Below, piece after piece: positions 38,470 through 47,827 of a DNA stretch of 64,000 nt. Each line of letters starts with the position of its first letter. The first letter of the stretch is position 1. The DNA is from an uncultured delta proteobacterium (GTDB lineage Bacteria; Myxococcota; Myxococcia; Myxococcales; 40CM-4-68-19): the NCBI GenBank assembly GCA_903911145.1, contig CAIWCD010000046.1:1-64000 (forward strand), written 5' to 3'. Made by a program: the position numbers and the translations under genes. The notes under the pieces are model-generated. The model made no database searches. It was not told the origin of the DNA and saw nothing but the letters and a program-made list of their open reading frames with translations.

Positions 38470-39956
38470 TCAGATGCCGCCGTCGGCGCTGTAGTGGTGG
38501 ACGCGAGCTGCGCCGGTGCTGTCGACGGTGAAGAGCTGAGTGGCGCTCAGCGGCGCGACGAACGTGAACTTGGCGCCCGCGGTGCTCGTCGGGCAGCCGT
38601 CGAGAACGGGAGGGGGCTCTTGGTAGATCTCGAGAGAGTTGTCCGCGTTGGAGACGTCGATGGTGAAGTCGAACGTGTAGATGCCGTCCACCGCGATCCA
38701 TGCGGAGCGCAGCGTGCTGGTGGTGTTCGATGGCGTCGCCTGGTCGATCATCAGAGTGTGGAGCGTCGTCGGGTCGTCGACCGCGCCAGGTGCTCCAGTG
38801 ATGGCGGTGCTCCAGATGGTGCGCTGGCTGGACCAGGATGGGTGCGCCGATGCGCCATCCGGGCTTACTGGCGTCAACGCGTTGAACTGGAACTCCTGCG
38901 TCGACGAGTAGAGGTAGATGAACGTCGAGACATAGATCTGCGGAGCGGATCCAGAGGCCTTGAGTACGAGCGGACTATTCGGCGGCCGCGGGTCGCTCGT
39001 GGTGCTGCCGAAGAGCGAGCCGGTGGCGAGGTCGATCGTCGTCGATGCCTTCGTAATGGAGGAAGCGTTCGCCGCGTTGGTCGTCATGAGCCAGTGCGTG
39101 TTGCCTCCGGGGAGCAGCAGCGGATCGAGGATGCGAACGTCGTTGTTCCCGACGTCCGGGAGAGCGGGCGATCCGTGCGGACCCACGCCCGCGTCCGCCG
39201 GGTCGCAGAGCGGGAAGCTCGAGTCTGGGCAGAGCGTTGCGACGTTCCCGAACGCGATCAAGTTCGTTCCGCCCGTCTCAGGATTCTGAGGGTCTGAGCC
39301 GGAGGTCAGGCCGCCCAGCGCGAGACCCGAGCTGAATCCTCCATCGGAGAAGAGCTGCGCCTGCTCTCCGTTTCGGCAGCTGTCTGGCCCGCTGAGGAAC
39401 GTCGAACCTGGCGCGAAGCCGATCACCGACGCGCAGGGAATGCCGCCGACGAATCGTCCGGGCCCGACTGCGAGCGCAGTGGGAACGACGGCAGAGTTCT
39501 TCGGGCCGACGTTGTAGGCCGTGACTCCTCCGGCCGAGTCGCCGAGTAGAAGGTAGGTCTTCCCGCCATTGGCGACGAAGGCGATCGCCGAATAGCTGGG
39601 CTCGCCGACGTTGGGGACCGCACCGGCGTGGAAGACCGGCAGCGAGACGTTCTGGAATGTGATCGTCCCGCCGTCTTCGCCATTCGTGATGGCCATGTTG
39701 CAGGGACCGATCGGCGAGGTATCGCCTCCGCCCTTCCTCCTCCTGCGCCTCCCGCGCTGCCACCTCCAGTGCCGCCGGCGCTCCCTCCTGCCGAGCCGCC
39801 ACCGCTCCCTCCTCCCATGCCGCCTCCGCTGCCTCCGTCGGAGCTGGCGTCGAGCGCTGCATTCACGATCAGCGAACAGCCTGATGCAGATACGAGCAGC
39901 GCGATCAGGGGCGCCAGCGCGGCGGGAGAGCTGGTTTGCGTCGAGCGGCGTTGCAT
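38470..39956 (-). CDS. Lipoprotein A of a four-member paralogous family; frame broken in the linker
   Basis: The start is MQRRSTQTSS with lipobox SASGC and a Gly/Ser/Ala linker of GGGSGGGSAGG type. Around 39735-39745 (GGAGGAGGAAGGGCGG) the frame must change to reach the conserved domain, which is open from CNMAITNGEDGG to the stop. One added base repairs it. The domain (about 400 residues) shares AFVANGGKTYLLLGD, ALAVGPGRFVGGIPCASVIG, FLSGPDSC and a terminal FVAPLSATQLFTVD with lipoproteins B-D. It is likely on the cell surface or in the periplasm. Function is unknown. Confidence 0.7.
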
Positions 39957-40120
39957 CTGGAGGGCCTCAACGCGGTGTGCGCGTATCAACATGCGATCGT
40001 GAAAGCTCAAGCACGATGGCTGGCGTGAGCACAAGCAGAAGCGACCCGCAATCGCATGCGTCACGATCCGCGCGCGCTGCACCTCTCCTTGAGGACCGCT
40101 CAGAGGCCGCCGTCGGTCGA

Positions 40121-41596
40121 TCAGTTCGGTACTTTGTGGACGCGCGCGTGGCCGCTCGTGTCGATCGTGAGGATCTGCTCGGCAGTGAGCGGCGCGGCGA
40201 AGACCACGTTGCTGCTGCAGTGATCGATGGCGGAGTGGGTCCAGCTCCATCCGGGTATGCCGGCGCCGGGCTTCGGTGCCGCGTCGGAGTAGGAGACGCC
40301 TCCATCCGTGATCCAGACGGCGCGCAGTGCAGTTCCTCCGTCGCCAAGAGCGAGCGTCAGGGTCCGCAGAGAGGTTGCGTCCGCGGCGAGCGGCTCGCTG
40401 CCCTGCGCACTCAGCTGATACCGGCTGTCCGGCCTCTGGAACAAGGTGTCGAGTTTGTTCGCCCCGCCGTCGCCTGCGGAGAAGACCGTCACTGCGACGT
40501 ATTGGACGCCATCCGGAGTCGCGATCATCGATGTGCTGGCGGGTGATCCGCTGATATCCGCGAAGTGATCCCTGTTCCCTGATGGATCCCCGGCCAGGTC
40601 CCGAACGAGGCCAGCGTCAGCCACGTTGTCGGTCAAGATCCAGTGCTTGCCTCCGTCGAGCTCGACCAACACGTCGAGGGTGCGCCAGCCCCCGTCCGGA
40701 ATGGCTCCGATGTTGGTGCCACCATCTGCGAGCGGACCGCGCGAACTGGAATCGAGGAGGCAGGCTGGATAAGTGGTGTCCGCGCAGAGCACAGCGGTGG
40801 CGCCGAACGCGACCGCGCTCGAGCCTCCCTGCTCCAGCCCTCCTGCCGTTACTCCGGCGACCGCGAGTCCGTCGGTCGAAAGCCCTGAGAGCCACTGCGG
40901 CAACTGGGACTGGTTGCTCCAGCAACTGTTGCTCGGCCCGGTCAGGAAGATCTCGCTCAAGGAGTTCACAGTGGTCGCGCCTATCACTTCCGCGCAGGGG
41001 ATGTTGTTCACGTAGCGCCCCGGCCCGACCGCGAGCGCGGTGAGCCGGGCCTGATTCGTCAGGCCCACATTCCACGCCTGGATTCCGCTATCGACAGTGC
41101 CGAGGAGAAGATAGGTGGTCCCGTTGGCCACGAACGCGACGGTCGAGATCGGCTTCTCGCTGCTCGGATTGAACGGGATCGCCGCCGAGTGGAACGCGAT
41201 CGGCTGCGAGACGTCGACGCTGTCGAAGACGATGTCGCTGCCCCTGTGATCTGCGTCGATGATCGGGTCGTTGCAGGCGCTACCGCCGCCGGAGCCTCCT
41301 CCTGCACCGCCCGCGGAGCCGCCACCAGAGCCACCCGCAGCACCTCCCGCGCTGCCACCTCCCGCGCTGCCCGCACTTCCTCCGGCTGCGCCACCCGCGA
41401 CGCCGCCACCAGAGCCGCCCGCAGCACCTCCAGCGCTACCGCCGCCGTGACCTCCACCACCACCACCCGCGTCGGGCGCGCTGTCCGACATCTTTCCGCC
41501 GACAATCAGCGTGCACGCGGGGGCGACGACGATCGCGCAAAGCAGCGCTGCGAGCGGTCCGGCGCTGCGCAGGCGGTTGAGTCGAGTCGAGCTCAA
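40121..41596 (-). CDS. Lipoprotein B of the paralogous family
   Basis: 491 residues from a TTG with GAGG upstream (CGAGGTCGTTTTG). The signal ends in the lipobox VVAPAC. A linker of about 70 residues is almost only Gly, Ala and Ser. The conserved domain follows: TVAFVANGTTYLLLG, LTALAVGPGRYVNNIPCAEV, IFLTGPSNSCWSN, CADTTYPAC, HWILTDNVADAG, LRAVWITDGGVSYSD, and VFAAPLTAEQILTID with a final HARVHKVPN. The repeating hydrophobic/Asp-Gly pattern suggests a beta-rich, perhaps propeller-like fold; that is inference. Its TTG overlaps the repaired stop of the upstream gene. Confidence 0.8.
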   Translation of the reverse strand: MSSTRLNRLRSAGPLAALLCAIVVAPACTLIVGGKMSDSAPDAGGGGGGHGGGSAGGAAGGSGGGVAGGAAGGSAGSAGGGSAGGAAGGSGGGSAGGAGGGSGGGSACNDPIIDADHRGSDIVFDSVDVSQPIAFHSAAIPFNPSSEKPISTVAFVANGTTYLLLGTVDSGIQAWNVGLTNQARLTALAVGPGRYVNNIPCAEVIGATTVNSLSEIFLTGPSNSCWSNQSQLPQWLSGLSTDGLAVAGVTAGGLEQGGSSAVAFGATAVLCADTTYPACLLDSSSRGPLADGGTNIGAIPDGGWRTLDVLVELDGGKHWILTDNVADAGLVRDLAGDPSGNRDHFADISGSPASTSMIATPDGVQYVAVTVFSAGDGGANKLDTLFQRPDSRYQLSAQGSEPLAADATSLRTLTLALGDGGTALRAVWITDGGVSYSDAAPKPGAGIPGWSWTHSAIDHCSSNVVFAAPLTAEQILTIDTSGHARVHKVPN

Positions 41597-42524
41597 AACG
41601 ACCTCGCGAGGAGAATTTCGCCGCCGTGCTGCGTGGGGGGGCGATCGCTGCGGTCGGCGCGGATTCGCTTGGAGCGCCGAGCCAGAGCCAGAGGGCTGCA
41701 CCGGCGCTGAGCGCGGCGGCACCGTAGAGAATGTCTGCGGTGTGCGCGCGGGCGAGCGCCGAGTCCGAGTGCGGCGAGGCGTTGACCGCATTGAGCGCGG
41801 CGATGCCGAATCCTGCGCCGACGCCTGCGAGCACTGCTGCGGCACTCCCCGTGATGATCGCCCACTGCCGACGGGAGATCCCGCTCGAGTGTGCATCGGT
41901 CGAGACGAGTGGCGCGCCCTGCGTGGGCGCCGCGCTGGTGGCCGGGTTGCTGCTGGTCGCGCTGCTGCTTGATGCATTCGCGTTGGCGACGCTCGTGGTC
42001 TCCGCGAACAGCTTGGTCGCAGCTGCGCGCATCGAACGCACGAGCAGCGCCTGCGCCTTCGCGACGCTGTCGGCGTAGCGCGCGAGTGGCTGCGCGTGGT
42101 GCGCGTCGATGCGCACGGCCGAGATGAGGTACTGGTTTCCCGCGACCGAGACGCTGGCCTGCACCACTTCATCCACGCCCATCGCGCCCGCGAGCTCCGC
42201 GATGCAGCGCTCGCTCTCCTCGTCGCAACCCATCTTGCGCTTGGTCTCCTGAAACCCGAGCAGCGCGCGGATGTCGGTGGAGACCAGCGGAGGCACGCCA
42301 CGGCGCTCACCGACTTCGCTCGCAAGAAGCTGCGTCAGGTACGGGCCGAGCGCGGCGTCGATCTGCGCATCGAGATGCACGTCCATCACGACGACCTTGG
42401 CCGGGCCTTTGGCGTGCGTCGCGGGAGTGGCCGCAGGCGCGGCGCGCAGGCCCGTCGAGACGACCAGCGCGACGAGAGTGATGAGCCCGGAGATCCGCGA
42501 GAGAAAAGGAGCGCGTGAGTGCAT
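41593..42524 (-). CDS. Exported protein with CsgG/FlgO-like N-terminal region; frame broken at C7
   Basis: Starts MHSRAPFLSRIS with a signal-like segment, then KVVVMDVHLDAQIDAALG, LLASEVGER and VDEVVQASVSVAGNQYLISAVRID, a pattern like the ABD-type domains of CsgG, FlgO and TolB-N relatives. Two membrane helices follow (WAIITGSAAAVLAGVGAGFG and ILYGAAALSAGAALWLWLG). In a run of seven C near 41640 the frame goes wrong; with eight C the protein ends GGEILLARSF and stops at TGA 41595-41593, overlapping the TTG of lipoprotein B. Without repair it runs on as Arg-rich sequence to 41436. Confidence 0.6.
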
Positions 42525-42528
42525 CCGC

Positions 42529-42540
42529 GCAAGCTAGCAT
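42529..42540 (-). promoter_or_regulatory. Shared extended -10 element; leaderless start of the CsgG-like gene
   Basis: Minus strand ATGCTAGCTTGC contains TG-C-TAGCTT, an extended -10. The ATG at 42524 begins seven bases after the hexamer, so the transcript probably starts at or near the A of ATG. The same 12 bases occur at 43961 and 46950. Confidence 0.5.
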
Positions 42541-42578
42541 CGTCGCGGCCGCTCGTGTCCCGCGAATGAACGCAGCCG

Positions 42579-43898
42579 CTAGTGGCCCACGCCGCGAGAA
42601 TCCTGCAGGTTGCTCGGCACGCGATGGACGCGCGCGTTGTGGGCGCGGTCGACCGTGAAGATCAGCCCCGCATTCAGCGGCGCGGCGAACGTGATGTCGC
42701 TGCCGCACGAGTCGCGGCGCGGCAGACTGAACTTCGCGTTGACGTCGTCCGCGGGATTGTCGAGGTCGGCCATGAACACGCCTCCATCTGCGAGCCAGAC
42801 GGAACGCACGGCGCTTGCTCCGCTGGCGCGATCAACTGCCAGCAGGTGAAGCGACGCAGGGTCTGCCTGTGCGTCGACGATCGGCCCTCCTACGGCGGTC
42901 AACAGCGGCGGCGCGTAAAGGGCGCGCTCGAGGATCTTGTTGGCTCCATCCGAGTACACGTACTCGAGCACGAGGAGTTGCGCTCCAGCGAGCTGCGAAG
43001 AGTAGGGAGTCGTTGCGAGAGGCGACACGAACTGAGGGCCGGGGAGAGGCAGAGAGCTGTTCGTGAGATCAGCGAGTGCACCTGCATCGGGGCCGTCGGT
43101 CGCGACGAGAATATGCGCGCCACCATCTTCGACCAGCAGGTCGAGGACGCGCCATCCTCCATCTGCGACCGGAGCCGGCATTGTCGGGAAGGTAATGCTC
43201 TGCCCCGCGCAGTTGGGAAAATGCCGATCTTCGCAGACCTGTGCGTCGGTGCCGGCGGAGATGATGGTCACGTGGGCGGCGTCCCCGATTCCTCCGAGTG
43301 CGACGCCATTGGAACTGGAGAGCGGAAACGACTGCGGCGGCGTGCCCGTGCTGTTCCAGCAGCTCGGCGGGCCGCTCAGCCAGGAATCAGCCGGCGAATC
43401 GCCGAGGATCGTCAGCACGGACGCGCAAGGTTCGCCGCTGATCGTCCGCCCCGGCCCGACGGCGACCTGCGAGGGCTCACGGGGCCAGACTCCCGAGACA
43501 TCGATCGCGGAGACGCTGGTGTCGCTCGCGCCAGTGAGCACCAGATAGGTCCGGCCGTTGGCGACGAACGCGACTGCCGCATAGCCTGGCGCGCTCGGAC
43601 TGGGGAGGGCGGCGGAGTGATAGGCGGGATAGAGGACGGGACCGACGAGCGGTCCTCCGTCGTTGCCGTCGATGATCGCGAAGCCGCAGCCCGAGTCGAT
43701 GCCTGCGTCGCTGCCGCCTGCGTCGCTCCCCGCGTCTCCTCCGTCGCCCGCGTCGCCGCCGCCATCAGAGGATTCGAGCGACCGGTTGTCGAGCGCGCGA
43801 TCGACGAGCAGCGAGCACGCGGGCGCGGCGCCGAGCGCGCAAAGCAGTGCTGCGAGCGGGGCCGCTTTGCGCGCGATGTTCATTCGAGCGGCGTTCAA
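42579..43898 (-). CDS. Lipoprotein C of the paralogous family
   Basis: 439 residues from a TTG with CGCGAGG upstream, as in lipoprotein B; an ATG five codons on is an alternative. The signal ends GAAPAC, followed by SLLVDRALDN. The linker is Gly/Asp-rich (DGGGDAGDGGDAGSDAGG) instead of Gly/Ala/Ser. Domain: AAVAFVANGRTYLVLTG, QVAVGPGRTISGEPCASVL, SWLSGPPSCWN, CEDRHFPNC, SLHLLAVDRASG, VRSVWLADGGVFMADL and ITFAAPLNAGLIFTVD with a final ARVHRVPS. Frame intact. Function is unknown. Confidence 0.8.
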   Translation of the reverse strand: MNAARMNIARKAAPLAALLCALGAAPACSLLVDRALDNRSLESSDGGGDAGDGGDAGSDAGGSDAGIDSGCGFAIIDGNDGGPLVGPVLYPAYHSAALPSPSAPGYAAVAFVANGRTYLVLTGASDTSVSAIDVSGVWPREPSQVAVGPGRTISGEPCASVLTILGDSPADSWLSGPPSCWNSTGTPPQSFPLSSSNGVALGGIGDAAHVTIISAGTDAQVCEDRHFPNCAGQSITFPTMPAPVADGGWRVLDLLVEDGGAHILVATDGPDAGALADLTNSSLPLPGPQFVSPLATTPYSSQLAGAQLLVLEYVYSDGANKILERALYAPPLLTAVGGPIVDAQADPASLHLLAVDRASGASAVRSVWLADGGVFMADLDNPADDVNAKFSLPRRDSCGSDITFAAPLNAGLIFTVDRAHNARVHRVPSNLQDSRGVGH

Positions 43899-43960
43899 TG
43901 AGTCCTCGCGACGAGAGTCCGCACACCCGGCAGACAAGCCTTTGGGCTGAACGGAGCTGC

Positions 43961-43972
43961 GCAAGCTAGCAT
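43961..43972 (-). promoter_or_regulatory. Shared extended -10 element of lipoprotein C
   Basis: Identical ATGCTAGCTTGC as upstream of the CsgG-like gene and lipoprotein D, here with a leader of about 60 bases before the TTG start. Confidence 0.5.
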
Positions 43973-44056
43973 TCGCCGCCCGTCGCGCCAGCGATGAAAC
44001 GCACGCGGCGATGCGACCGCCGTCTCGCCCTGAGTGATCAGCGCTGAGGCGCGCTG

Positions 44057-44554
44057 CTACGCCCCGATCGCGCGAAATTCGTTCTTTGCCCACTCGGTGG
44101 CGATGTCGCGGCTGAACTTGAAATTCGCGGGCACGCGGCAGTGGCCGACGCGCTTGCCCTGCGGATCGAGCGCAGAGAGGATCGCGTGCGGCTCGTACTC
44201 GTCGGGGATCTGCTCGAGCGTGACGTCGTACCAGATGCCTCCCCACGCGACCGAGGCGCGCTTCTTCATCGCCGCATCCCGCTGGCGCGCCGAGCGCTCG
44301 AGCACTTCCGATGCGGTCTTGACGAACGTGGTGAACGCGGGCCCATCGAACGGCTTGGGATTTTTCTTATCGCGCCCCATCACCCACGGACTGATCAGCG
44401 CGGGCTCCGCGAGACCGGCTTTGCGAATCTCGACGGCCCAGCCGTCGTCATCTTCATTCTTGATGACGCGCGCGCTCCAGCCGTTCTTGCGCCAGTACGT
44501 ATCCTCCATCACATCGGGCTCTGCGGGCGTCGTCTCTTGTGGGTCGTGGCTCAT
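44057..44554 (-). CDS. Conserved hypothetical protein
   Basis: 165 residues from MSHDPQETTPAEP. The body has YWRKNGWSARVIKNEDDDGWAVE (split here), GPAFTTFVKTASEVLERSA and IWYDVTLEQIPDEYEPHA. It is probably a cytosolic alpha/beta protein. No known domain is recognised. It stands alone between lipoprotein C and the nucleotidyltransferase cassette and shows normal codon bias. Confidence 0.65.
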   Translation of the reverse strand: MSHDPQETTPAEPDVMEDTYWRKNGWSARVIKNEDDDGWAVEIRKAGLAEPALISPWVMGRDKKNPKPFDGPAFTTFVKTASEVLERSARQRDAAMKKRASVAWGGIWYDVTLEQIPDEYEPHAILSALDPQGKRVGHCRVPANFKFSRDIATEWAKNEFRAIGA

Positions 44555-44721
44555 GTGGCGTCTCTCTTACGCTTTATTTGCGAGGCGGGTTGGCTCTCTG
44601 ACTCGCGCGTGCGGAGCGCATTCTGGCGCGGCACTCTGACATTCGCGATTGCTCGGGATTCGTTCCGCCGTCCCGTCTGCCCCTCGGACGCGATGATGGG
44701 AAGGCGCGCCGACTTCCCGAG

Positions 44722-44727
44722 TAGAGT
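44722..44727 (+). promoter_or_regulatory. Candidate -10 (TAGAGT) of the nucleotidyltransferase cassette
   Basis: TAGAGT lies 21 bases before the GTG, with GGGAGG between them as ribosome site. The same layout is kept in the decayed copy at 38123. Confidence 0.4.
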
Positions 44728-44748
44728 TCTCTTCTGGGAGGTTGCTTC

Positions 44749-45288
44749 GTGGACTTTGCGAACGTGCTTGCGGAGCTGGTCGCCTTCTTTGCCGAGAGAG
44801 GGATTCGCTGCGGCGCGGCTGGCGCAATCGCGTTGCACGCGCATGGTGTGACGCGCGCGACGAGCGACCTCGATCTCGTGGTCGAAGAGTCCGGCGCGCA
44901 GGCGCTGCGTGAGCACCTCTCGGCGCTCGGCTACGAGCAGCTCCACGCGTCTGCCGGATTTTCCAACCACCTCCACCCTGACGCCGCGCTCGGACGACTC
45001 GACTTCATCTATCTGGATCCGCACACCGCCGATGTCCTCTTCGGCAGCGCGCAACCCCGGGAGATCTTCAGCGGCGTCACGCTGCCAGTACCGTGCGCGG
45101 AGCACCTCGCCGCCATGAAGGTGCTGGCGATCAAGAACGATCCGTCCCGCGTCTTCCGCGATCTGGCAGACATCCAGGCGCTCCTCGACCTGCCGGGCGT
45201 TGACGAAGACGTGGTGCGCGGATACTTCCATCGGCATGGTCTCCTCGCGCGATTTGAAGAGCTCCAGCGCGCCCGCGGCCGGGCTTGA
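44749..45288 (+). CDS. Nucleotidyltransferase-fold protein of a two-gene cassette
   Basis: 179 residues from a GTG with GGGAGG upstream. The fold signature GAAGAIALHAHGVTRATSDLD carries the paired acidic residues (TSDLDLVV) of pol-beta-like nucleotidyltransferases; AALGRLDFIYLDP gives the third acidic strand. CAEHLAAMKVLAIKNDPSRVFRDLADIQALL is the usual helical end of AbiEii/MNT-like proteins (motif split). Related proteins are toxins or antitoxins that modify tRNA or proteins. The stop overlaps the next gene by 53 bases. Confidence 0.75.
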   Translation: MDFANVLAELVAFFAERGIRCGAAGAIALHAHGVTRATSDLDLVVEESGAQALREHLSALGYEQLHASAGFSNHLHPDAALGRLDFIYLDPHTADVLFGSAQPREIFSGVTLPVPCAEHLAAMKVLAIKNDPSRVFRDLADIQALLDLPGVDEDVVRGYFHRHGLLARFEELQRARGRA

Positions 45289-45457
45289 TCTCTTGCGGTC
45301 GATGAGCGCGGGGGATGTGGCGGCGCTGCGCAAGGCGTCGGCGGCAAGCCAGCTCTCACCTGCGGACTACGCGCGCTTTCTCGCCCAGTTTCGCGTTTCG
45401 CACGAGGCGCTGCGTGCGCGCCGTGGTCCCTGCGGCGCCGAGCGATTCACGCTCTAA
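45236..45457 (+). CDS. Small partner protein of the nucleotidyltransferase
   Basis: 73 residues from MVSSRDLKSSSAPAAGLDLL. It keeps the core SQLSPADYARFLAQFRVSHE and ends RFTL. The large overlap with the nucleotidyltransferase gene implies coupled expression, and the pair is retained together in the decayed copy at 38123. It is likely the cognate partner, as in toxin-antitoxin pairs, but which is toxin is unknown. Confidence 0.65.
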   Translation: MVSSRDLKSSSAPAAGLDLLRSMSAGDVAALRKASAASQLSPADYARFLAQFRVSHEALRARRGPCGAERFTL

Positions 45458-45542
45458 GGCCGCCCGGCTTCCACCGCCGGACCCGTCCCGCGATTGCGTG
45501 CGCTTCGATCGCGGCGGGATGCACCGTTGACTCAAAGTCCGA

Positions 45543-46937
45543 TCAGAGCCCTCCGTCGCTCGGCCCATTCGGCACGCGGTGCACGCGCGCGTTGCCGCTC
45601 TGGTCGACCGTGAAGATCAGATCGCGGTTGAGCGGCGCGGCGAACGCGATGTTGCGGCTGCATGAGTCCAGCGCGGCGGGGCCCCAGTTCGTGTTGGTGC
45701 CATCGACGACGGGCAGGTCGGCGAAGTAGACGCCGCCATCCGAGGTCCAGACCGCGCGCAGCGTGGTTCCGCCGTCGCGCTCGTCGATCGGCATTGTGTG
45801 CAGCGACGCCAGATCGGGATCGGACGGGAGCGTGCTGCTCAGCGAGACCGACGGATTATTCAGGTCCTGGGACCTGAAGATCGAGAAGAGCACCAGCCCG
45901 CCGTCGACGCCCGGGCCAAAGAAGGCCGACTGCACGTACCACTGCTTCGACGCTGCCGATAGAACCGCTGTGCTCACTGGGTTGGGCTCGATGGTAAGCG
46001 TGTTGCTCGGCACGGTGAGATCGACCGCGGCTCCGCCATCCGCGCTGTTGGTCGCGAGGAGCCAGTGCGTGGTGCGAGCGGAATCGACGATCGCGTCGAG
46101 CACGCGCGAGCCGCCGTCGGGGAGCGCAGGAACGGTCGGCCCCGCGATGCCTGTGCAGTTTGGATAGCTCCTGTCCGAGCAGAAGTGCGCCTGCGTGCCC
46201 ACGATGATCAGATTCATTCCCGCATCGAGGTCGCCGCTCGGCGACGTGATTCCACCGAGTGCAATTCCGTTCGGGTCGGAGATGCCGCTATAGGCGAGCG
46301 CCTCGCTGTTCCAGCAGTTGACCGGGCCGCTGAGGAAGGTGCCGAAGCTCGAGACTCCGAGCACGGAGGCGCAGCGCACGCCGCCGACCGTGCGGCCTGG
46401 CCCGACCGCGAGTCCCGTGATCGGGTGGTCGTTCCCACCGACGTCGAACAGCGCGGCGGCCTGCGCGAGCGGATTGGCGAGCGAGCTGTCGCGTGGAGTG
46501 CCGAGCACGAGATAGGCCTCGGTGCCGATGGAGAATGCGACAGCGGCGACAGGCTTCTCGCCGTTGACGGGCCCGGCCGCGGAGTGGAAGACGGCGTTCG
46601 AGACGCCAGCATCGATCGAGGTCGGCGTGAGCTCAACCGGGTTCCAGAGCGCGACGTTGCAGGGATCGTCCACGGGGCCTGCATCGCCGCCGCTGCCGCC
46701 AGCCGATCCACCCGCGGAGCCGCCACCAGAGCCGCCCGCAGCGCCGCCTGCGCTGCCGCCCCCAGATCCTCCTGCCGATCCTCCGCCTGCGTCAGCGGCA
46801 CCGTCGGACATCTTGCCGCCGACGATCAGCGTGCACGTAGGAGCGCCGACGAGCGCGCAGAGCAGCGCGGCGCGTGCGAGCAGGCGCATGGACGCATGGA
46901 CGCATGGACGCATGGACGCATGGACGCATGGACGCAT
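45543..46937 (-). CDS. Lipoprotein D of the paralogous family, with a repeat tract at its start
   Basis: 449-465 residues, depending on which in-frame ATG of the repeat tract is used (46937, 46913 or 46889). From the last ATG it reads MRLLARAALLCALVGAPTC, a lipoprotein signal, then TLIVGGKMSDGAADAGG and a Gly/Ala/Ser linker. Domain: AVAFSIGTEAYLVLG, GLAVGPGRTVGGVRCASVLG, TFLSGPVNCWNSE, CSDRSYPNC, HWLLATNSADGG, LRAVWTSDGGVYFADL and IAFAAPLNRDLIFTVD with final ARVHRVPN. It is closest in style to lipoprotein B. The eight octamers upstream make its expression likely to be phase variable. Confidence 0.8.
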   Translation of the reverse strand: MRPCVHASMRPCVHASMRLLARAALLCALVGAPTCTLIVGGKMSDGAADAGGGSAGGSGGGSAGGAAGGSGGGSAGGSAGGSGGDAGPVDDPCNVALWNPVELTPTSIDAGVSNAVFHSAAGPVNGEKPVAAVAFSIGTEAYLVLGTPRDSSLANPLAQAAALFDVGGNDHPITGLAVGPGRTVGGVRCASVLGVSSFGTFLSGPVNCWNSEALAYSGISDPNGIALGGITSPSGDLDAGMNLIIVGTQAHFCSDRSYPNCTGIAGPTVPALPDGGSRVLDAIVDSARTTHWLLATNSADGGAAVDLTVPSNTLTIEPNPVSTAVLSAASKQWYVQSAFFGPGVDGGLVLFSIFRSQDLNNPSVSLSSTLPSDPDLASLHTMPIDERDGGTTLRAVWTSDGGVYFADLPVVDGTNTNWGPAALDSCSRNIAFAAPLNRDLIFTVDQSGNARVHRVPNGPSDGGL

Positions 46938-46950
46938 GGACGCATGGACG
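46887..46950 (-). repeat. Octanucleotide tract, eight perfect copies, at the lipoprotein D start
   Basis: The minus strand reads (CGTCCATG) eight times. Each unit contributes an ATG, and because eight is not a multiple of three successive ATGs cycle through all frames. ATGs at 46889, 46913 and 46937 are in frame with lipoprotein D; the first one met after the promoter (46945) is not. Confidence 0.95.
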
Positions 46951-46961
46951 CAAGCTAGCAT
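46950..46961 (-). promoter_or_regulatory. Shared extended -10 element of lipoprotein D
   Basis: The same ATGCTAGCTTGC as at 42529 and 43961. The first repeat ATG (46945) begins seven bases after TAGCTT, exactly as in the CsgG-like gene, predicting a leaderless start there. Confidence 0.55.
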
Positions 46962-47009
46962 CGGCCCGGTCTGGCGAGCGCGGCGAAACTTTCCGGCCGG
47001 CGATCCGAT

Positions 47010-47079
47010 CCATTTTTTCCGTGCTCGCTTCTCATCTCCCGCAAGGGGAGATTGCGAGGCTGCGCGCGGCAAAAAATGG
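47010..47079. repeat. 70-bp nested palindrome
   Basis: Outer arms CCATTTTTT and AAAAAATGG enclose inner arms CTCGC/GCGAG and ATCTCCC/GGGGAGAT around GCAA. It lies between lipoprotein D and the small gene at 47227. It might be a terminator, cruciform or small mobile element. The rest of 46962-47209 shows nothing recognisable. Confidence 0.5.
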
Positions 47080-47226
47080 TTCGGGCCTCCGCCGTCCCGT
47101 CGGGTCCGCGATCGCGAGCGCCGAGAGAGTCGAGATAGCCGAGAGGCGCGCATTCGGCGCGAGTGTCGAGGACGTCGCGTGAGCGGCGTGCGTCGTCGAG
47201 CGGTGTCCTCTGATAAGATTCAGCGT

Positions 47227-47427
47227 GTGACCGATCGATCGAACTGGCCGACGCGCAAACTGCAACTGGGCGAGGCGGAGCCGCTCGATGTTGCGCACCT
47301 CACGCCGGGGCAGCGCGTGGAGATGGTCGAGGAGCTCACGAAGCAGGCCTGGACCTTCAAGGATGGGCACTGGAATGAATCGCGACTTCGACGAGATGTT
47401 GTCCGCACTGTTCGCGGCAGGAGCTGA
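47227..47427 (+). CDS. Small antitoxin-like partner of a nucleotidyltransferase
   Basis: 66 residues from a GTG. A TAAGAT hexamer ends nine bases before the GTG, so the leader would be very short. The protein reads LTPGQRVEMVEELTKQAWTF and ends WNESRLRRDVVRTVRGRS. I recall short proteins with this helical ending encoded before DUF6036/AbiEii-like nucleotidyltransferases, where they are thought to act as partner or antitoxin. It overlaps the next gene by 53 bases. Confidence 0.6.
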   Translation: MTDRSNWPTRKLQLGEAEPLDVAHLTPGQRVEMVEELTKQAWTFKDGHWNESRLRRDVVRTVRGRS

Positions 47428-47827
47428 ATTTCTCGTCGTCGGCGCTCACGCCCTTGCGGCGCACGGGTTTCCGCGCGCGACGGGCGATCTCGACCTCTGG
47501 GTGAACGCGACGCCGGAGAATGCAGAACGTGTCTGGGCCGCGCTGGTGGCGTTCGGCGCGCCGCTCGGGGATCTCTCGATCGATGAGCTTTCGAGGCCGG
47601 GAATCATCTTCCAGATGGGGCTCCCTCCGCATCGCATCGATGTGCTGACGAAGATCGACGGCGTCGAGTTTGCCGATGCGTGGACGCGCAGACTGGACGC
47701 GACGATCGACGGGCGATCGCTGCCGCTGCTCGGGCGCGTGGACATGATCACGAACAAGCGCGCGGCCGGTCGCCCGAAGGATCTGGTCGATCTGGAAGCG
47801 TTGCAGAGCGACGGCGCGCGGAAGTAG
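47375..47827 (+). CDS. Nucleotidyltransferase-fold protein, AbiEii/DUF6036-like
   Basis: 150 residues from MNRDFDEMLSALFAAG. The signature FLVVGAHALAAHGFPRATGD continues with LDLWV, carrying the acidic pair; PPHRIDVLTKIDGVEF and LLGRVDMITNKRAAGRPKDLVD follow. This matches type IV toxin-like nucleotidyltransferases paired with a small partner. It is a different subfamily from the cassette at 44749, so two such systems lie 2 kb apart around lipoprotein D. Confidence 0.75.
   Translation: MNRDFDEMLSALFAAGAEFLVVGAHALAAHGFPRATGDLDLWVNATPENAERVWAALVAFGAPLGDLSIDELSRPGIIFQMGLPPHRIDVLTKIDGVEFADAWTRRLDATIDGRSLPLLGRVDMITNKRAAGRPKDLVDLEALQSDGARK

Follow-up and report, generated by a model that had tools for sequence, protein, structure and literature searches.

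An octanucleotide tract at a leaderless start as a candidate translational frame switch in an uncultured myxobacterial lineage

Contingency loci built on simple sequence repeats (SSRs) are familiar from host-adapted bacteria; in Haemophilus influenzae, octanucleotide tracts (12–15 copies upstream of hmw) are reported as candidates (PMC2651432). A 2025 review regards phase variation in environmental bacteria, i.e., those of ocean and soil, as a knowledge gap (PMC11868660). In Mycobacterium tuberculosis, variable tandem repeats lie just upstream of the leaderless promoters of lpdA and cysG, in the upstream promoter region, and are described as promoter copy-number variation (PMC12817950). In Beggiatoaceae, TAACTGA heptamer repeats are dispersed before start codons in 169 sets, most of which end before the start codon (PMC4679880).

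The locus considered here lies in a window (i.e., the whole stretch of DNA that was analyzed) of 64,000 nucleotides from an uncultured delta proteobacterium of the Myxococcota. As in lic, mod and hmw of H. influenzae (PMC2651432; PMC11868660), a short, perfect tandem tract occupies the 5′ end of the gene, which is termed D and encodes a probably exported protein; again as in those contingency loci, the unit is not a multiple of three and wrong frames stop early. Unlike in them, the start codon and the promoter-start spacer are part of the D unit, a switch would depend on a leaderless 5′-terminal AUG, and variation is a prediction. As in lpdA and cysG (PMC12817950), a copy-number repeat adjoins a leaderless transcript start, a predicted one at D; however, the D repeat runs from the −10 box downstream and would change the reading frame with the promoter unaltered. 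With the TAACTGA repeats (PMC4679880) it shares short tandem repeats placed no more than a few bases from start codons, where a ribosome-binding site is mostly lacking, whereas D is a single locus with the start codon inside the unit. Within the part of the literature covered, no repeat unit that includes the leaderless start has turned up, nor has repeat-based phase variation in Myxococcota.

The tract consists of eight copies of CGTCCATG, all perfect, at 46950–46887 on the minus strand, a count taken from one assembled genome, the only one of its species among those covered. Together with the flanking TG and CG, the period-8 run, read directly from the sequence, spans 68 bp (46952–46885, minus strand; 8.5 copies, 100% match) and begins on the last base of the −10 box, TAGCTT (46952). 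It holds 60 period-8 matches in succession, far beyond chance: across 60 Markov simulations of the 64-kb window, no period of 4–30 gave more than 19. Among the marks of an SSR contingency tract are a perfect tandem repeat with a unit length not divisible by three, as is the case here, and a shift of the reading frame upon unit change, which at D leads into dead ends of 39 or 45 codons, conditional on use of the first ATG. That the tract is perfect, uninterrupted and placed exactly between the −10 box and the ORF is counted in favor of a contingency tract. The stability of RNA structure within the tract was not above that of shuffled sequences, and an Rfam search at the D locus returned no match.

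The −10 box (46952–46957, minus strand; read directly) is of the extended form TGCTAGCTT, with TG at 46960–46959. Six bases separate it from the first ATG (46943–46945, minus strand), which occupies the leaderless position and is out of frame at eight units, and the start junction, C/A, is pyrimidine-purine. Among 854 genes predicted in this genome by a simple rule combining ORFs with codon-position GC, TANNNT occurred 6–9 nt before an in-frame ATG 60 times, as against six times in the two other frames combined; the leaderless arrangement is present in 61 of the 854 genes, and leaderless spacing marks a real, enriched gene class here. The 12-mer TGCTAGCTTGCG has five exact occurrences in the genome, four of them at D's gene family: its sites are at D, at the gene starting at 42524, upstream of paralog C, at C24 near 122845 (the head of a second family cluster), and one on C2. 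Both the 42524 gene and the gene at C24 near 122845 have an ATG at D's six-base spacing behind TGCTAGCTTGCG, with the C24 site identical to D at 17 of 18 bases through the ATG; in paralog C and the C2 gene, the TGCTAGCTTGCG promoter is followed by a leader. Because promoter and spacing are common to sister genes, D with one unit only, TAGCTTGCGTCCATGCGCCTG, would look like any other leaderless member of the family. From this genome-wide evidence, leaderless initiation is expected at the D promoter, with a predicted start at 46945.

An earlier note, made from the sequence of the window, had proposed phase variation at this locus, and its reading of the anatomy (eight perfect units at the translation start of D, a first ATG at the leaderless position behind TAGCTT, and the same spacing at the 42524 gene, which we find to share TGCTAGCTTGCG exactly) is borne out, although its label ‘CsgG-like’ for the 42524 gene is without Pfam support. 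Since the leaderless census and the shared promoter back leaderless initiation at D, the proposal of phase variation is strengthened and may be called partly supported.

The frame outcomes agree with that note as well. The first ATG (46945) reads MRPCVHAS... and reaches a TGA at 46828–46826 after 39 codons (out-of-frame ORF at 46826–46945, minus strand). The long ORF is read by the ATGs of units 2, 5 and 8 (46937, 46913 and 46889), giving products of 464, 456 and 448 aa, the last of which (ATG at 46887–46889, minus strand) is the shortest precursor, MRLLARAALLCALVGAPTC...; the remaining tract ATGs stop after 23–45 codons. The view that only internal ATGs are in frame with the lipoprotein holds for these three but overlooks one more, at 46961, which overlaps the −10 box. 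Early stops in both wrong frames are counted in favor of a contingency tract. Because the distance from the first to the last ATG is 8(n−1), the first is in frame only at n = 1, 4, 7, 10 and so on, and the note was right that 7 or 10 units would place the leaderless ATG in the lipoprotein frame.

This anatomy fits an on/off switch well, and a plausible route to it begins with the promoter: transcription from TGCTAGCTT would be expected to begin on the A of the first ATG, and the ancestral single-unit form would have been an ordinary leaderless gene like its neighbors. TAGCTTGCGTCCATGCGCCTG holds TGCG twice, 8 bp apart, once in the promoter (TTGCG) and once as the start codon plus CG; this TGCG-TCCA-TGCG direct repeat would be a natural slippage seed, one that defines the repeat unit exactly. 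Because the unit is the promoter-start segment itself, we infer a local origin by slippage from a single leaderless start, in which slippage between the TGCG copies would produce the observed unit and phase and would make the tract begin where it does, on the final T of the −10 box. Slipped-strand mispairing would then add or remove 8-bp units while promoter and transcription start stay unchanged, and each such change would move the ORF 8 bases relative to the 5′-terminal AUG, such that protein would be made at n = 1, 4, 7, 10 and so on, and at other values of n reading would stop after some 40 codons. With eight units, as assembled, expression would be absent or weak, and what product remains would come from those internal ATGs that are in frame, which have no Shine-Dalgarno sequence. 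The tract, the promoter spacing, the leaderless class, the frame outcomes and the intact ORF are visible in the sequence itself. The switch would further require that transcription begin at 46945, that ribosomes use the first AUG strictly, that unit number vary and that a phenotype result. We put the chance at about even that this is a contingency-type (i.e., translational frame-switch) tract made from the leaderless start site itself; that copy number, in a member of the Myxococcota, picks the frame of the 5′-terminal AUG while promoter and transcription start remain constant is a proposal we hold more tentatively, somewhat below even.

The gene that would be controlled in this way (45543–46889, minus strand; 448 aa from the last tract ATG) would encode a signal peptide, a GAPTC lipobox, a Gly/Ser-rich linker and an all-beta domain. 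The note reads it as a lipoprotein, but the lipobox is atypical (GAPTC vs. APAC in paralogs B and C). From these features, the product is probably a secreted, beta-rich lipoprotein, and its prediction as a surface lipoprotein is plausible. An AlphaFold model of moderate confidence (mean pLDDT 69, pTM 0.75) had many beta-propellers among its best Foldseek matches, at TM about 0.4, and we call the modelled fold ‘propeller-like’ only; a Pfam search assigned D to no family. As the note had indicated, D is paralogous, with five paralogs in the genome at 35–42% identity. Outside the genome, searches for orthologues gave weak partial matches only, mainly to the Gly/Ser-rich N-terminal part, and a D gene with high similarity was present in no relative searched. 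Because the ORF is intact, GC by codon position is coding-like (0.66/0.58/0.84) and conserved paralog residues are kept, the gene is not decayed, which is likewise counted in favor of a contingency tract. This family of Gly/Ser-rich, beta-rich probable lipoproteins occupies two clusters (38479–46957 of the window and C24:118994–122862), each of which includes a leaderless partner gene with the TGCTAGCTTGCG promoter, and among the genomes searched its full-length members occur in this one only.

The strongest rival to a contingency switch arises from the unit itself. Because every unit has an ATG, all three frames keep ATGs, and on/off control therefore hinges on strict use of the 5′-terminal AUG; if the internal ATGs start translation well enough, the repeat would buffer, or at most grade, expression whether the tract varies or not. 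Three in-frame tract ATGs at eight units are counted against a switch: at n = 8 the long ORF is open to those at 46937, 46913 and 46889, of which the last stays in frame at any n, and the intact ORF suggests that the protein is made. Also counted against it is that a transcription start one or two bases later would lose the first AUG and expose the second, which is in frame. Internal in-frame ATGs could, in this manner, grade or abolish the switch. However, no Shine-Dalgarno-like sequence occurs within the CGTCCATG unit, and leaderless messages are established to favor a 5′-terminal AUG. That internal ATGs sustain expression in this way strikes us as unlikely, if a serious contender.

Frame-shifting perfect tracts are nearly absent from the genome, which is counted in favor of a contingency tract at D. 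A survey of 2.34 Mb of the 5.3-Mb genome (perfect tracts of about three or more copies, with units of at least 4 bases and not a multiple of three) recovered two, the D tract and an intergenic heptamer at C14:111954; the D tract is the only perfect period-8 tract of about three or more copies in these 2.34 Mb. Across the whole 5.3 Mb, tandem CGTCCATG occurs at the D locus only, so that the tract does not belong to a dispersed intergenic heptamer/octamer repeat family, and a search of 194 other Myxococcota genomes found no run of three or more CGTCCATG units. In the phylum, 5 of 188 genomes carry octamer ATG tracts, whatever the unit, and no inspected one, there or among the matches listed elsewhere, feeds a long ORF from a leaderless start. 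Of the heptamer ATG tracts in the phylum, one (L315, in relative G141; GCCCGAT ×10.6) directly precedes an ankyrin-repeat ORF that has its own downstream start, and is possibly a leader-length tract; the rest lie elsewhere or are ambiguous. Among the matches listed, none of the inspected octamer or heptamer ATG tracts of other genomes has a D-like arrangement. In the 2.34 Mb surveyed and in the phylum scans, no other gene start was seen to carry a tract like that of D; within that scope the D tract stands alone, with no repertoire of such switches in view, which counts against a switch.

A single such locus, with no tract-bearing orthologues, would also be in keeping with a neutral, recent expansion of the slippage-prone TGCG-TCCA-TGCG start, in which there is no selected switching and the gene may drift to silence. 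The slippage seed is evident, and the other octamer and heptamer tracts inspected are mostly away from gene starts. Set against this, a type of tract that is very rare in this genome falls precisely at the start of a gene that is intact and belongs to a promoter-sharing family, and we consider neutral expansion less probable again than expression from the internal ATGs.

It is very improbable that transcription starts further upstream and the tract serves as a variable N-terminal extension, with eight units as the ON state, for although the ATG at 46961 and an ORF from 47153 are in frame at eight units, that ATG shares bases with the conserved −10 box, there is no ribosome-binding sequence close by, the upstream region is a repetitive palindromic element, and the promoter-to-start distance equals that of the sister genes.

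The palindromic element itself (about 100 bp; 46986–47105, minus strand) lies just upstream of the D promoter. It has 14 copies in the genome at E≤1e-4, further ones being on C18, C14, C13, C7, C52, C48, C35, C22 and C39, and none was detected in 11 relatives of the family; the window copy has no Rfam match. The copies share a conserved core, GCCGCGCGCAGCC...GAGCAGCGAGCACGGA, and their arms vary in sequence yet stay complementary. One copy lies within 100 bp of the second perfect frame-shifting tract, CTCGAAC ×12.6 (L132:11790–12041, corresponding to C14:111790–112041); this heptamer was rejected as a start-site tract because it is intergenic and not at a start.

Two other features of the window deserve mention. 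A minus-strand C7 at 41635–41641, in the gene starting at 42524, is the window's only C/G homopolymer of at least 7 and marks the point where the frame of this gene leaves that of its C24 paralog; the paralog-like ending, TQHGGEILLARSF, lies in another frame, its stop overlapping the start of lipoprotein B. This C7 may reflect an indel introduced by sequencing or else be another frame-switch tract of the same cluster. Between and beside the lipoprotein genes, on the plus strand, are two nucleotidyltransferase-like ORFs, one with an AbiEii-type Pfam match (44749–45288; 3.4e-07) and one with a weak match (47288–47827).

If the tract at D does switch frames at its leaderless start, then a leaderless start alone can seed and carry a contingency switch, and one slip at the promoter-start junction would suffice to make an ordinary leaderless gene switchable. 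The locus would let one ask, in a clean natural setting, whether a ribosome on a leaderless message passes over AUGs 8, 16 and 24 bases inward, and repeat-based bet-hedging would reach an environmental, uncultured myxobacterial lineage.
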